In this document: piece after piece, positions 5,119 through 9,744 of the stretch | Numbering within the stretch: position 1 is the first letter of the stretch | Layout: the number at the start of each line of letters is the position of its first letter | Source: Sandarakinorhabdus sp. AAP62 | GTDB lineage: Bacteria > Pseudomonadota > Alphaproteobacteria > Sphingomonadales > Sphingomonadaceae | Direction: 5' to 3' | Length of the DNA stretch: 64,000 nucleotides | NCBI RefSeq assembly: GCF_000331225.1 | Contig: NZ_ANFY01000009.1 | Coordinates: 1 to 64,000 of the forward strand | Program-made: the position numbers and the translations under genes | Notes under the pieces: generated by a model | Database searches by the model: none | The model's input: the letters and a program-made list of their open reading frames with translations, nothing else | Told to the model about the DNA's origin: nothing

Positions 5119-6896
5119 CAGATGCGCTCCTTCACATAGGCGCCGGGCGCGTCCTCGATGGCCTTGTAGGGCCCCTCGCCCGGCACGCGCGGCTTTACCT
5201 GCGGGCCGGAACGCGGCGTGAGCCACGCGAGCCAATCCGGCCACCAGCTGCCCTTGTGCTCGGTGGCGCCGGCGATGAATTCATCAAGGTTGGCAGCCGA
5301 GGAATCGCCGGTCCAATGTTGATATTTCTTCGCCGACGGCGGGTTGACCACGCCGGCAATATGCCCACTGCCGGCCAGCACGAAGCGGGCTTCGTTGCTG
5401 AAGGCCTTGGTCAGCTTGAAGGCCGATCGCGCCGGGGCGATATGATCTTCCTTGCCGCCCTGGATATAGATCGGCGTCTTCACCGTCTTGAGATCGATCG
5501 GCACGCCGCAGACATTCATGCCGCCGGGTTTGACCAGCAGATTCTCGCGATACATGTCGCGGATATATTGCTGGTGCCAGCGGGCCGGCACATTGGTGGC
5601 GTCGCTGTTCCAATAGAGCAGATCGAAGGGGAAATAATCCTTCCCCAGCATGTAGTTGTTCACCACATAGTTCCAGATCAGATCGTTGGAGCGCAGCAGG
5701 TTGAAGGTGGTGGCCATGAAGCGACCATCGAGCACCGGCTTGTCTTCCGTCACCTTGTCCAGCGTTTCGACACTGGGATCATCGACGAAGAATTTCAGCT
5801 CGCCGGCTTCCTCGAAATCGACCTGGGCGGTGAAGAAGGTGGCGGTGGCGATGTTGGCGGCGTCACCCCGGCTTTCCAGCACGGCCATGGCGGCGGCCAG
5901 AGTCGTGCCGGCCACGCAATAGCCGATGGCGTGGGTGCTGGGCGTGTTGCAGATCTCGCGCACGGCATTCACGGCGGCGAAAATGCCTTCCTCCACATAG
6001 GTATCCACCGTGGCATCGGCGATGCTGGCATCGGCGTTCTTCCAGCTGGCGACGAAAACGGTGATGCCCTGCTCCACCGCCCAGCGGATGAAGCTTTTTT
6101 CGGCGGTGAGATCGAGAATGTAGAATTTGTTGATCCACGGCGGGAAGATCACCAACGGTATCTCGTACACCGTCTGCGTGGTCGGCGTATATTGGATGAG
6201 CTGCAGCAGCCGGTTCTGAAACACCACCTTGCCCGGCGTGATGGCGACGTTGCGGCCGACTTCAAAGGCGTTTTCGTCGGTCATCTTCATGCGGCCGGTC
6301 TGCAGATCGCCGAGCAGATGTTCGAGGCCTTTCAGGAGATTGGCACCGCCGGTTTCCGCCGTCGCCTTCAGCACTTCGGGATTGGTGAGGGCGAAATTCG
6401 ACGGGCTCATCGCGTCGACAAACTGCTTGATGATGAACTGCGCCTTGGCTTTTTCGGCCGGCTCCAGCCCATCAAGGCTGTGCGCGGCTTCCATGAAATG
6501 GCTGGCGGTGAGCAGATAGGATTGGCGCAGGAAATCGAACGCCGGACTTTCGGCCCAGGCGGCATTGGCGAACCGCTTGTCCCTGATGGCCGGCTTTTCA
6601 GCATCGGGCGACAGGAAGCTCTGCCACAGCGCCATGGCATCTGTCATGTATTTCTGCTGCATCTCCAACAGTTTGGCCGGATCGGACAACATGGCCGTCC
6701 ACGCCTTCTGCCAGGTCGACATGAAGCCCATCGGATCGGTGACCATCGGCGGCGCCGTATGTTCCCTGGTCCAGAATTCCATCATCATCTGCTGGCCCTT
6801 GCCCATCAGATCGGTGACTTTCCGGAAATTCTCCTGCGCCTGGGCTTGGCTGAAGCCAAGATCCTTGGTGTCGGACGTGTCGGGCGTGACGGGCAT
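5118..6896 (-). CDS. phaC: Class I poly(3-hydroxyalkanoate) synthase
   Basis: 592 aa, the usual length for class I PhaC. It polymerises (R)-3-hydroxyacyl-CoA into PHA on carbon-storage granules. The alpha/beta-hydrolase core carries the catalytic triad: Cys327 in GYCVAG, Asp484 in GGKEDHIAP and His512 in GSGHIAG. The lipase-like box is GYCVAG where most class I enzymes have GYCxGG, a single Gly-to-Ala change two residues after the catalytic cysteine. The start is supported by AGGAG about 10 nt upstream. It leads a three-gene minus-strand run (phaC, cupin, glycosyltransferase); phaA, phaB and phasin genes are not in the window. Confidence 0.93.
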   Translation of the reverse strand: MPVTPDTSDTKDLGFSQAQAQENFRKVTDLMGKGQQMMMEFWTREHTAPPMVTDPMGFMSTWQKAWTAMLSDPAKLLEMQQKYMTDAMALWQSFLSPDAEKPAIRDKRFANAAWAESPAFDFLRQSYLLTASHFMEAAHSLDGLEPAEKAKAQFIIKQFVDAMSPSNFALTNPEVLKATAETGGANLLKGLEHLLGDLQTGRMKMTDENAFEVGRNVAITPGKVVFQNRLLQLIQYTPTTQTVYEIPLVIFPPWINKFYILDLTAEKSFIRWAVEQGITVFVASWKNADASIADATVDTYVEEGIFAAVNAVREICNTPSTHAIGYCVAGTTLAAAMAVLESRGDAANIATATFFTAQVDFEEAGELKFFVDDPSVETLDKVTEDKPVLDGRFMATTFNLLRSNDLIWNYVVNNYMLGKDYFPFDLLYWNSDATNVPARWHQQYIRDMYRENLLVKPGGMNVCGVPIDLKTVKTPIYIQGGKEDHIAPARSAFKLTKAFSNEARFVLAGSGHIAGVVNPPSAKKYQHWTGDSSAANLDEFIAGATEHKGSWWPDWLAWLTPRSGPQVKPRVPGEGPYKAIEDAPGAYVKERI

Positions 6897-6942
6897 CTGG
6901 GTGATCTCCTGCAGGTCTCACTGTGCCCCGTGTTGGCCTGCT

Positions 6943-6971
6943 TTGCCAAGCCCGGCCTGATGCGCTATCGA
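6943..6971 (+). promoter_or_regulatory. Candidate sigma70-type promoter for the alaC leader
   Basis: TTGCCA (6943-6948) and TATCGA (6966-6971) are separated by 17 bp, close to the TTGACA/TATAAT pattern. Transcription would begin near 6978, directly before a 6-bp hairpin (CGGCCC 6981-6986 with GGGCCG 6992-6997) and the leader peptide. Predicted from pattern and position only. Confidence 0.5.
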
Positions 6972-7016
6972 AATAGATGTCGGCCCGCTGGGGGCCGGCA
7001 CCAAGGGACGTTTCGG

Positions 7017-7118
7017 GTGATCAACCAGGCCATCATCATTGCCGCCGCCGGCGCTGCATCCGCAGCCGCCGCCGCTGCTGCATTGATTGCAGCACTGGCC
7101 GCAACGCCGCCGCCCTGA
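7017..7118 (+). CDS. Alanine-rich leader peptide (attenuator peptide) upstream of alaC
   Basis: A 33-codon frame begins with GTG at 7017, 8 nt after the Shine-Dalgarno-like AAGGGA (7003-7008), and ends with TGA at 7116-7118. Seventeen of 33 codons are Ala (8 GCC, 6 GCA, 3 GCT, no GCG although GCG is common in neighbouring genes), five are Ile, and it ends Thr-Pro-Pro-Pro. It is followed 32 nt later by a strong intrinsic terminator and then by an alanine aminotransferase gene. That arrangement is the classic one for a ribosome-mediated attenuator sensing charged tRNA-Ala. A real small hydrophobic membrane peptide is the alternative. Confidence 0.6.
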   Translation: MINQAIIIAAAGAASAAAAAAALIAALAATPPP

Positions 7119-7192
7119 GAGACTGCACGCAACAATCAGTCTTTCCCACCAGCGGCGGCGGAACAAATAGGTTCCCCCGCCGCTTTTCTTTT
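7041..7192 (+). promoter_or_regulatory. Putative alanine attenuator: antiterminator segments plus terminator
   Basis: The 5' arm of the terminator (AGCGGCGGCGG, 7151-7161) can pair with two upstream segments: CCGCCGCCGCT at 7066-7076 inside the Ala-codon run (11 bp perfect), and CCGCCGCC at 7107-7114 in the Pro codons at the end of the leader (8 bp). A ribosome reaching the leader stop would cover the second segment and let the terminator form; one stalled at Ala codons would leave a segment free to form an antiterminator. A small hairpin GCTGCA/TGCAGC (7077-7082 with 7088-7093) lies between. The mechanism is inferred by analogy to trp, his and ilv attenuators. Confidence 0.55.
7151..7192 (+). 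terminator. Strong intrinsic terminator in the alaC leader
   Basis: AGCGGCGGCGGAAC (7151-7164) pairs with GTTCCCCCGCCGCT (7171-7184), 14 positions with one mismatch and a six-base loop, followed by TTTTCTTTT (7184-7192). It points toward alaC and ends 47 nt before its start. The gene upstream, phaC, is on the other strand, so it does not end any annotated gene other than the leader. Confidence 0.85.
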
Positions 7193-7239
7193 GACCCACT
7201 GTTGCCTAAGGCAACGCCTTCAGCCCAACGGAACTGACC

Positions 7240-8451
7240 ATGCAGGACGATTTTTACCGCATCAAACGTTTGCCGCCCTACGTGATCGCGGAAGTGAACG
7301 CGATGCGGGCCGCAGCACGGGCGCGCGGCGACGACATCATCGATCTGGGCATGGGCAATCCCGATCTGCCGCCGCCGCCGCATGTGATCGCCAAGCTGGC
7401 CGAAGTGGCCGCCAAGCCGGATGCCCATGGCTATTCGGCGTCGAAGGGCATTCCCGGCCTGCGCCGCGCCCAGGCCGCCTATTATGATCGCCGCTTTGGC
7501 GTTGATCTGGACCCCGAGTCCGAAGTCGTCGTCACGCTGGGGTCGAAGGAAGGCCTCGCCAACCTCGCCCAGGCGATCACCGCGCCGGGTGACGTGGTGC
7601 TGGCGCCCAACCCGTCCTATCCCATCCACACCTTCGGCTTCATCATTGCTGGCGCCACCATCCGTTCCGTGCCGACGACGCCGGACGAGCGTTATTTCGA
7701 GGCGCTGGAGCGGGCGGTGCGATTCACGGTGCCGCGCCCGAGCGTGCTGGTGATGGGCTATCCCAGCAACCCCACCGCCGAAGTCGCCGATCTGGCTTTC
7801 TATGAGCGCGTCGTGGCCTTCGCAAAGAAGCACAATATCTGGGTGCTTTCGGATCTGGCCTATTCGGAAATCTATTTCGATGGCCAGCCCACGCCGTCGA
7901 TCCTGCAGGTGCCGGGCGCCAAGGACGTGGCGATCGAGTTCACCTCGATGAGCAAGACCTATTCGATGGCCGGCTGGCGCATCGGTTTCGCCGTGGGCAA
8001 CAAGACGCTGATTTCGGCGCTGACCCGGGTGAAATCCTATCTTGATTACGGCGCCTTCACGCCGATTCAGGCTGCCGCCGTGGCCGCGCTGAATGGCCCG
8101 CAGGATATCGTCGCGCAGAACCGCGAGCTCTATCACCGCCGCCGCGACGTGCTGGTGGAAAGCTTTGGCCGCGCCGGCTGGGAGATTCCGCCGCCGCGCG
8201 CCTCCATGTTCGCCTGGGCCCCGCTGCCACCAGCACTGGCACATCTCGGCAGCCTCGAATTCTCCAAGCAGTTGCTCACCGAAGCCGGTGTCGCCGTGGC
8301 GCCGGGGGTGGGCTATGGCGAGGATGGTGAAGGTTTCGTGCGCATCGCCATGGTCGAGAACGAGCAGCGCCTGCGCCAGGCCGCGCGCAATATCCGCAAA
8401 TATCTCCAATCGATGGGCGTCAACACGCCTGCTGCCAACGCGGGTGCCTGA
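7240..8451 (+). CDS. alaC: AlaC-like alanine aminotransferase (class I/II PLP aminotransferase)
   Basis: 403 aa. It catalyses transfer of an amino group between alanine/pyruvate and glutamate/2-oxoglutarate. The chain reads very like Escherichia coli AlaC: RLPPYV at 10-15, DIIDLGMGNPD at 32-42, HGYSASKGIPGLR at 63-75, VTLGSKEGLANL, YPSNPTA at 174-180, the PLP Lys239 in SMSKTYSMAGWRIGF, and SYLDYGAFTPIQ. Such proteins are sometimes labelled LL-diaminopimelate aminotransferase, but the AlaC resemblance is stronger. The alanine-rich leader upstream agrees with a role in alanine synthesis. Homoserine dehydrogenase starts 3 nt after the stop and is likely co-transcribed. Confidence 0.88.
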   Translation: MQDDFYRIKRLPPYVIAEVNAMRAAARARGDDIIDLGMGNPDLPPPPHVIAKLAEVAAKPDAHGYSASKGIPGLRRAQAAYYDRRFGVDLDPESEVVVTLGSKEGLANLAQAITAPGDVVLAPNPSYPIHTFGFIIAGATIRSVPTTPDERYFEALERAVRFTVPRPSVLVMGYPSNPTAEVADLAFYERVVAFAKKHNIWVLSDLAYSEIYFDGQPTPSILQVPGAKDVAIEFTSMSKTYSMAGWRIGFAVGNKTLISALTRVKSYLDYGAFTPIQAAAVAALNGPQDIVAQNRELYHRRRDVLVESFGRAGWEIPPPRASMFAWAPLPPALAHLGSLEFSKQLLTEAGVAVAPGVGYGEDGEGFVRIAMVENEQRLRQAARNIRKYLQSMGVNTPAANAGA

Positions 8452-8454
8452 ACC

Positions 8455-9744
8455 ATGGTGAAGAGTTTGCGGATTGGCCTTGCCGGCCTGGGCAATGTGG
8501 GCGCCGGGGTCGTGAAGATCCTCAGCGCCAATGCGGAACTGGTGGCGAAACGCGCCGGGCGGCCAATCGTGGTCACGGCTGTCTGCGCGCGCGATCGCAG
8601 CCGGGATCGCGGCATCAGCCTCGATGGTATCGCCTGGGTGGATGATGCCGCCGAACTTGCCACCCGCGATGATGTCGATGTGGTGGTGGAGCTGATCGGT
8701 GGCAGCGACGGCCCGGCGCTCACGCTGGCCCGCCGCACGCTGGCCGCCAGCAAGCCGCTGGTGACCGCCAACAAGGCGATGCTGGCGCACCACGGCCTGG
8801 AACTGGCGCAAAGCGCCGAAAAAGCCGGCCTGCCGCTGAAATATGAAGCGGCCGTGGCTGGCGGCATCCCGGTGATCAAGGGGCTGGCCGAAGGTGCGGC
8901 CGCCAACCGTATCACCCGCGTCTATGGCCTGATGAACGGCACCTGCAACTATATCCTGTCGCGCATGGAAGCCGAAGGGCTGGATTTCGGCACCGTGCTC
9001 GCCGACGCGCAGGCACTGGGCTTTGCCGAGGCAGACCCGAGCTTCGACATTGACGGTATCGACACGGCCCACAAACTCTCGATCCTTGCCGCACTGGCCT
9101 TCGGTGCGCGCATCGATTTCGCCGGTGTTGCCGCGCACGGCATCCGCGCCATCGCCAGCGCCGATATCGCGCAGGCGGCTGCGCTGGGTTTCCGCATCAA
9201 GCTCGTCGGCCTGGCCGAAGCGGAAGATGGCCAGTTGTTCCAGCGCGTCCACCCGGCGCTGGTGCCGATCGATCACCCGATTGCCACCACCATGGGCAGT
9301 TTGAATGCCGTGGTGGTGGAAGGCGATTTCGTCGGCCGGCTGTTCTTCCAGGGACGCGGCGCCGGTGAAGGGCCCACGGCCAGCGCCGTGGTGGCCGATC
9401 TGGTCGATATCGCGCGCGGCGACGTGCGGCCGCCGTTCGTGATGCCGGTGGCTGATCTGGCTGCGCTGCCCCGCGCGCCGGCGGCGGACCGGCGCGGACG
9501 CTATTATCTCAGGCTCTCCGTGGCGGATCGGGCCGGCGTGCTGGCCGAACTGACGGCAGCGCTGCGCGATAGCGGCGTATCCATCGAAAGCCTTGTGCAG
9601 CGCGGCACCACCGGCAGCGATGCCATGGTGGTGATGGTCACCCATGAGGCCCGCGAAGCCGATGTGATCGACAGCCTGGCCCGCATGGCAGCCTCGCCGG
9701 CGGTCACCGGGCAGCCGGTGATGATGCATATCCTCGATTTCTGA
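8455..9744 (+). CDS. hom: Homoserine dehydrogenase
   Basis: 429 aa. It reduces aspartate semialdehyde to homoserine in threonine, isoleucine and methionine synthesis. The NAD(P)-binding motif GLGNVGAG lies at residues 11-18, followed by VTANKAM, the active-site stretch KYEAAVAGGIPVIKGL, and MNGTCNYIL. A C-terminal ACT domain starts at YYLRLSVADRAGVLAEL, which usually gives feedback control by threonine. It follows alaC by 3 nt, so the upstream attenuator would also govern homoserine synthesis. Full length for a monofunctional alphaproteobacterial enzyme. Confidence 0.95.
   Translation: MVKSLRIGLAGLGNVGAGVVKILSANAELVAKRAGRPIVVTAVCARDRSRDRGISLDGIAWVDDAAELATRDDVDVVVELIGGSDGPALTLARRTLAASKPLVTANKAMLAHHGLELAQSAEKAGLPLKYEAAVAGGIPVIKGLAEGAAANRITRVYGLMNGTCNYILSRMEAEGLDFGTVLADAQALGFAEADPSFDIDGIDTAHKLSILAALAFGARIDFAGVAAHGIRAIASADIAQAAALGFRIKLVGLAEAEDGQLFQRVHPALVPIDHPIATTMGSLNAVVVEGDFVGRLFFQGRGAGEGPTASAVVADLVDIARGDVRPPFVMPVADLAALPRAPAADRRGRYYLRLSVADRAGVLAELTAALRDSGVSIESLVQRGTTGSDAMVVMVTHEAREADVIDSLARMAASPAVTGQPVMMHILDF

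Follow-up and report, generated by a model that had tools for sequence, protein, structure and literature searches.

Leader-peptide attenuators belong to textbook biology, and the textbook examples sense amino acids other than alanine. The leu and thr attenuators are also counted among the classical ones and, to our knowledge, the amino acids sensed by the classical group are Trp, His, Phe, Leu, Ile/Val and Thr, with alanine missing. The leader of whiB7 senses many amino acids. Among the classical amino-acid attenuators are those of trp, his, ilv and pheA, as given in the portion of the literature drawn on here (PMC1183508). In the mycobacterial ilvB1 attenuator, according to the accessible part of its description, the antiterminator has its 5' side hidden by a ribosome that has reached the leader stop codon and set free by one that stalls on the regulatory codons (PMC13236596). 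The locus described below is predicted to follow the same stop-codon masking logic, although ilvB1, as far as that account goes, uses branched-chain codons and belongs to a different lineage and a different gene. The leader-frame attenuator of mycobacterial whiB7 has been reported to respond to alanine starvation and has been linked to the alanine gene aspC (Poulton 2024, as cited in PMC13236596); to the extent of this secondary account it is the nearest precedent for alanine sensing, but the whiB7 leader controls a transcription factor and not a biosynthetic gene in cis. Within the Alphaproteobacteria, the uORFC-8-2 motif located before cysS in Rhodobacterales is described, in the excerpt available, as a leader frame with cognate codons and attenuator-like features (PMC8632094). 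It resembles the present locus in being an alphaproteobacterial leader frame with codons for the cognate amino acid and differs from it in that the amino acid is cysteine and the gene encodes an aminoacyl-tRNA synthetase.

The preliminary description of this DNA knew of no described alanine attenuator. For a biosynthetic attenuator acting in cis this stands within the open PMC literature, where none was found, which is weak evidence of novelty as subscription journals lie mostly outside that collection; the phrase "alanine leader peptide" had a sole match in the open PMC papers, which by its title concerns Treponema antimicrobial peptides. In its general form the statement has to yield to the reported answer of whiB7 to alanine starvation (PMC13236596, in the part used here).

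The window, that is, the whole 64,000-nt stretch of Sandarakinorhabdus sp. AAP62 DNA that was analysed, carries between phaC (minus strand) and an aminotransferase gene starting at position 7240 an element which, judged from its sequence and from modelled folds, is probably a classical ribosome-mediated (leader-peptide) transcription attenuator tuned to alanine (Table 1). Its anatomy includes a leader frame with a start codon and a ribosome-binding site, conserved regulatory codons, a terminator and a predicted antiterminator; this anatomy, its conservation, the covariation and the predicted alternative folds are computed results. Like the classical attenuators, it combines a short frame rich in codons for the presumed product, a terminator before the first gene, a competing antiterminator and a presumed race between ribosome and polymerase. 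Unlike them, it has alanine as the regulatory amino acid, its antiterminator is made of the leader end, a separate hairpin and the terminator left arm, and no clear 1:2 partner of the antiterminator is seen.

Table 1. Features of the phaC-alaC region and of the genes downstream, in window coordinates.
Feature	Coordinates	Strand	Basis or remark
Candidate promoter of the leader transcript (TTTGCCAAG ... GCTATCG)	6942..6970	+	TTTGCCAAG seen by eye in 10/12 aligned clade sequences; inferred
Shine-Dalgarno-like AAGGGA of the leader frame	7003..7008	+	Position; relatives have purine-rich stretches before the start
Leader frame	7017..7118	+	GTG start at 7017, 33 codons, 17 Ala, Pro-Pro-Pro end; in 12/12 clade genomes
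Hairpin H1, inside the Ala codons	7050..7070	+	97.2% of 72 cells paired; both-sided changes in two pairs
11-bp complement of the terminator left arm in the Ala codons (first segment of the preliminary description)	7066..7076	+	Exact match
Segment B, 9-bp complement of the left arm, in Thr/Pro codons at the leader end	7105..7113	+	5' side of the antiterminator
Hairpin P, directly 3' of the leader stop	7117..7145	+	Antiterminator apex; both-sided changes in three pairs; z -3.4 (window copy)
Intrinsic terminator stem-loop	7151..7184	+	-24.7 kcal/mol; left arm common to the antiterminator
U-rich tract TTTTCTTTT	7184..7192	+	Sequence after the terminator stem
alaC-like class I aminotransferase	7240..8451	+	403 aa; family models
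hom, homoserine dehydrogenase	8455..9744	+	429 aa; 3 nt after alaC

Leader frame, distribution and downstream genes

The GTG-start frame of 33 codons with 17 for alanine was confirmed. Its translation in the window copy is MINQAIIIAAAGAASAAAAAAALIAALAATPPP, its Ala codons comprise 8 GCC, 6 GCA and 3 GCT, and the resulting Ala fraction (17/33, or 0.52) exceeds that of every other short frame in the window (25-45 aa, one per stop codon, 523 in all), the runner-up standing at 0.39. In a genus sample of 24 genomes, the window's own included, an Ala leader together with the common terminator was present in 12, in each case before alaC, and these are all 12 members of one Sandarakinorhabdus-like clade. 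This clade has a support of 100/100 in an AlaC tree holding 11 of its 12 members, L106 having been left out because the contig breaks off within alaC. Among named relatives, Sandarakinorhabdus limnophila and S. rubra come nearest, their AlaC proteins being 97 and 96% identical.

A mechanical rule, which asks for a short frame containing 6 or more Ala at a fraction of 33% or above and, after it, a terminator-like stem, picked out 15 of the 24 genus genomes, namely the 12 together with L103, L104 and L094, the match in L094 being the tail of a secreted protein. Outside the genus, one of 97 loci matched (L082, where the frame lies in the final part of a different gene), probably by chance; six duplicate loci of genus species had been set aside from this set, in which a few loci have short upstream sequence (L021, 81 nt). 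For the class-wide sample, 289 genomes were searched, 134 had an alaC match and 109 upstream regions were taken (three from the window's family), and none of the 109 held an Ala-rich frame with a terminator. By rule a terminator lies near alaC in 29 of these regions; the eight of them that were read have no Ala-rich leader and several stand behind the end of the upstream gene, so they were rejected as attenuators. A covariance model built from 11 sequences returned one copy in 12 of the 24 genus genomes, immediately before alaC in every case and scoring 82-108 bits, with all other matches in those genomes at or below 35 bits; across 199 family genomes, under stricter filters, matches outside the clade reached at most 37.4 bits. 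Thirteen weak matches (seven from the genus and six from the family) were inspected as possible further copies and look like ordinary terminators. A short frame with at least 33% Ala ended near none of the 13, the best being a lipoprotein-like frame with 28% before L155. Elsewhere in the window's own genome, a 17-codon candidate leucine leader with 4 Leu codons lies before leuA.

The clade leaders contain 12-17 Ala among 25-33 codons with the starts adopted here. When 11 of the 12 leaders were aligned by codon, Ala reached 80% or more in 12 columns, within which the mean pairwise difference is 0.08 at the first codon position, 0.05 at the second and 0.42 at the third; gaps within the coding part of the clade DNA alignment are multiples of three. 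On this comparison, the leader Ala codons are under selection, with third positions free. The case set beforehand against an attenuator was that of a terminator kept while the Ala codons were not; what the alignment shows is that both are kept together in 12/12 clade genomes, as against 0/109 and 1/97 outside the genus. An Ile codon stands near the start in 11/11 aligned leaders. Near the end, Pro-Pro is seen in 11/11 and Pro-Pro-Pro in 8/11 (7107-7115 in the window), and this Pro run is either segment B spelled in Pro codons or a ribosome brake.

The enzyme encoded directly downstream carries, as its best NCBIfam equivalog, LL-diaminopimelate aminotransferase PRK09148 (756 bits, cut-off 648), which is the only model above its cut-off among the best 25 of 65; alanine transaminase PRK08175 comes second with 585 bits, below its cut-off of 647. 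The window's genome also has dapD, just over the cut-off (378.7 vs 375.4 bits), with which lysine synthesis would not have to depend on this enzyme. A role in making alanine fits the leader, but an argument from the leader to the enzyme would be circular. The LL-diaminopimelate aminotransferase name may be wrong, as the Ala leader suggests. As to the joint control of alaC and hom that was first proposed, the two genes are not always adjacent. In each of the 11 clade genomes whose contigs extend far enough, hom lies downstream; it follows alaC directly in 9 and is 408 nt off in L084 and 682 nt off in L089, and the contig of L106 ends too early to judge. Within the flanks examined, hom is directly downstream of alaC in 20 of 127 loci, so that the two are neighbours in few.

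Upstream signals, terminator and predicted antiterminator

A promoter-like element had been noted upstream of the leader. By eye, TTTGCCAAG followed by a TAT/TAA block can be made out in 10 of the 12 aligned clade sequences, which makes the element a candidate, but a consensus scan of 6800-7500 gave it no support, returning no sigma-70-type promoter. A GC-rich stem-loop lies at 6979-6999, just 5' of the leader ribosome-binding site, and was folded in the window and L093 copies; repeats resembling it are seen by eye in other clade members. An Rfam search of 6850-7300 yielded 11 matches at E up to 10 and none at gathering score, so that no known Rfam leader or riboswitch family was recognised in that interval.

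The strong intrinsic terminator reported before alaC was recovered, with a stem of 8 bp, one mismatch and 5 bp followed by TTTTCTTTT. Twelve of the stem pairs are paired in 11/11 aligned sequences and one both-sided change, G-C to A-U, occurs in 4/11. The consensus scan did not list it, probably because of the internal mismatch. From the U tract to the alaC start there are only 27-48 nt in the clade loci, and there is thus likely to be little room for a promoter in this gap. An inverted repeat, GTTGCCTAAGGCAAC, is found there at 7201-7215; in L085, L088 and L091, TAAGGA occurs at ribosome-binding-site distance from the start codon.

Alternative structures sharing the terminator left arm had been proposed, and a predicted fold of this kind, consisting of the leader end, hairpin P and the left arm, is found in 12/12 clade sequences. 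The pairings originally put forward fared unevenly. The 11-bp complement within the Ala codons is an exact match, but pairing of either the Ala codons or the leader end with the left arm is no better than in synonymous shuffles of the same peptide, and the Ala-codon pairing was rejected on that ground as the main antiterminator. The second complement, at the leader end, is present with a length of 9 bp rather than the 8 bp given. When the region lacking the terminator right arm was submitted to RNAalifold (11 sequences), one long hairpin formed by the leader end, P and the left arm was returned unprompted. Its z-scores in the 12 clade sequences run from -2.30 to -5.32 (mean -3.72), compared with -1.96 to +0.62 in ten genus sequences outside the clade. 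The modelled folds thus make the leader end with P and the left arm the likely antiterminator, better supported than the pairing within the Ala codons.

Hairpins P and H1 are both absent from the preliminary description. The sequence of P varies between species while its pairing is kept, the pair types at successive pairs being GC/AU/GU, GC/CG/AU and UA/AU/GC, the last broken in 3/11. RNAalifold reports both-sided changes at three pairs of P, two of which are also found in the P + T alignment test, and P, taken alone, stands out from shuffles at the 2% level or beyond in 9 of the 12 sequences, with no clear excess in L086, L087 and L090. In the 11-row alignment, 97.9% of 187 P + T cells are paired, against 51-64% when the alignment is slid. 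Both-sided cells number 10 where shuffles average 3.4, and the covariation score is 0.189 where they give 0.105; neither value was reached in any of 500 shuffles, a count that overstates significance because the sequences are related. Two further measures of P + T do not stand out, namely pairs with a both-sided change (3 vs 2.2 shuffled, reached in 163/500) and further pair types (7 vs 6.9, reached in 360/500).

A 1:2 pause or protector hairpin was looked for, and what was seen was H1 with its both-sided changes, one at an A-U/U-A pair and one at a C-G/U-A pair; H1 is not the partner of segment B. Between species, GCT...GCA flips to GCA...GCT, and in L092 GGC...GCC is replaced by GGT...ACC. 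For H1, pairs with a both-sided change (59/500) and further pair types (477/500) are not above shuffles, and by synonymous shuffles alone the hairpin is not established (median fraction 0.12, 12 sequences).

Predicted switching

In the mechanism that we infer, transcription would start upstream of 7017 and the ribosome would enter the Ala-rich leader while RNA polymerase advances. Where charged tRNA-Ala is scarce, the ribosome would lag within the 17 Ala codons, segment B, P and the left arm (from 7151) would zip into the antiterminator, and the polymerase would read through into alaC and hom. With ample alanine, the ribosome would instead reach Pro-Pro-Pro-stop and cover segment B and the foot of P, so that the terminator could form. 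After the ribosome has moved on, H1 probably ties up the CCGCC-rich Ala run so that it does not serve as a stray antiterminator. The start site, the translation of the frame, its timing relative to the polymerase, the response to alanine and the role of the enzyme in making alanine are all presumed in this scheme.

The scheme was examined by blocking 27 nt for a ribosome and computing the cost of giving up the terminator. This cost is 4.5-14.1 kcal/mol with the ribosome in the Ala run. Moving the ribosome to the leader end raises it by 3.5-7.8 kcal/mol for 8 of the 11 leaders, with no real rise in the other three (L086, L087 and L090). The mean rise over the 11 leaders is 3.8 kcal/mol, compared with 0.63 after shuffling of the B-P stretch, done 40 times per leader; in four leaders the rise exceeds all of their 40 shuffles, and in L088 and L089 it is matched by 23 and 17% of them, respectively. 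At equilibrium, the terminator is favoured for every ribosome position by about 3-17 kcal/mol, so the decision would have to be a kinetic one and the model needs co-transcriptional kinetics. Known attenuation is likewise treated as a race, in the part of the source used here (PMC1183508). Equilibrium folding of cut transcripts failed as a clean on/off readout: in transcripts that stop short of the right arm, pairing with the leader takes up most of the left arm wherever the ribosome stands, and with the ribosome at the stop codon 31-100% of the arm is still so paired (12 sequences). Masking of the antiterminator by a ribosome at the stop codon is accordingly a prediction of the model and not a clean switch.

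Alternative readings and possible origin

Outside the Ala-leader clade, the gap between phaC and alaC holds what by eye is a gene for a small secreted protein in eight genus relatives (L094, L097-L102 and L105). It is laid out as a signal peptide followed mostly by a CSAxVTDGCxQT...RAMTG-type stretch, and six of the eight regions contain a terminator by the mechanical rule. The clade leader is not this gene, since by eye it ends after 25-33 codons and has no Cys-containing mature domain. Two more relatives outside the clade, L103 and L104, have different Ala-rich short frames with strong terminators upstream of alaC; as independent copies of the attenuator they were rejected, the antiterminator not being significant in either (z 0.62 and -1.79).

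The Ala-rich signal peptides of the eight secreted-protein genes, the terminators in six of those regions and the other Ala-rich frames with terminators in L103 and L104 all speak for a reading in which the leader is the reduced relic, or a still functional copy, of a gene for a small protein that has a terminator of its own, and senses nothing, its Ala-richness going back to signal-peptide ancestry and alaC being transcribed by read-through or from a weak promoter. We consider this unlikely, given that the first two positions of the clade Ala codons are conserved and the wobble position is free, that P and the antiterminator are kept in the clade by compensatory changes and that the eight secreted-gene regions are without such an antiterminator (z -1.96 to +0.53); as an account of where the leader came from, it could still be right. 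The same anatomy could also answer to another signal, be it isoleucine, the overall speed of translation or ribosome pausing on polyproline at the end of the leader, a reading to which we give still less credence. It draws on the Ile near the start and the Pro-Pro near the end of 11/11 leaders, on the Pro-Pro-Pro in 8/11 and on the presence of hom, a gene of the threonine-isoleucine path, downstream in 11/11 clade genomes with enough contig, in two of them at a distance. However, Ala codons are more than threefold as many as Ile codons and fill the stretch where stalling would free segment B, hom is not always adjacent, and the conservation of the Pro codons has another possible cause because they also write segment B.

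That GC-rich DNA by chance placed GCC repeats beside an ordinary terminator is hardly credible. GCC repeats do naturally pair with GGC repeats, and the pairing of the Ala run with the left arm equals that of synonymous shuffles, but chance would also have to account for an Ala-rich frame with a terminator in 12/12 clade genomes as against 0/109 and 1/97 outside the genus, and for covariation in P + T beyond 500 shuffles. The attenuator tuned to alanine is the reading that we prefer.

For the attenuator, the signal peptide and terminator of the secreted-protein gene could have been the raw material of leader and switch, and L103 and L104 look like other reductions of the same gene; both suggestions are speculative and are drawn from position and composition only. 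Rather unlikely as a whole is the fuller proposal that this is the first cis alanine-specific biosynthetic attenuator and that it derives from a secreted-protein gene, with the signal peptide turned into the sensor, the gene's own terminator into the switch, and the Pro-Pro-Pro run into a brake holding the ribosome over the antiterminator.

Should the preferred reading be true, attenuation can sense even an amino acid that is very common, and the element would show a way in which an Ala run rich in CCGCC may be prevented from short-circuiting the switch. In these bacteria, it would also provide a functional argument that the aminotransferase annotated as LL-diaminopimelate aminotransferase supplies alanine.
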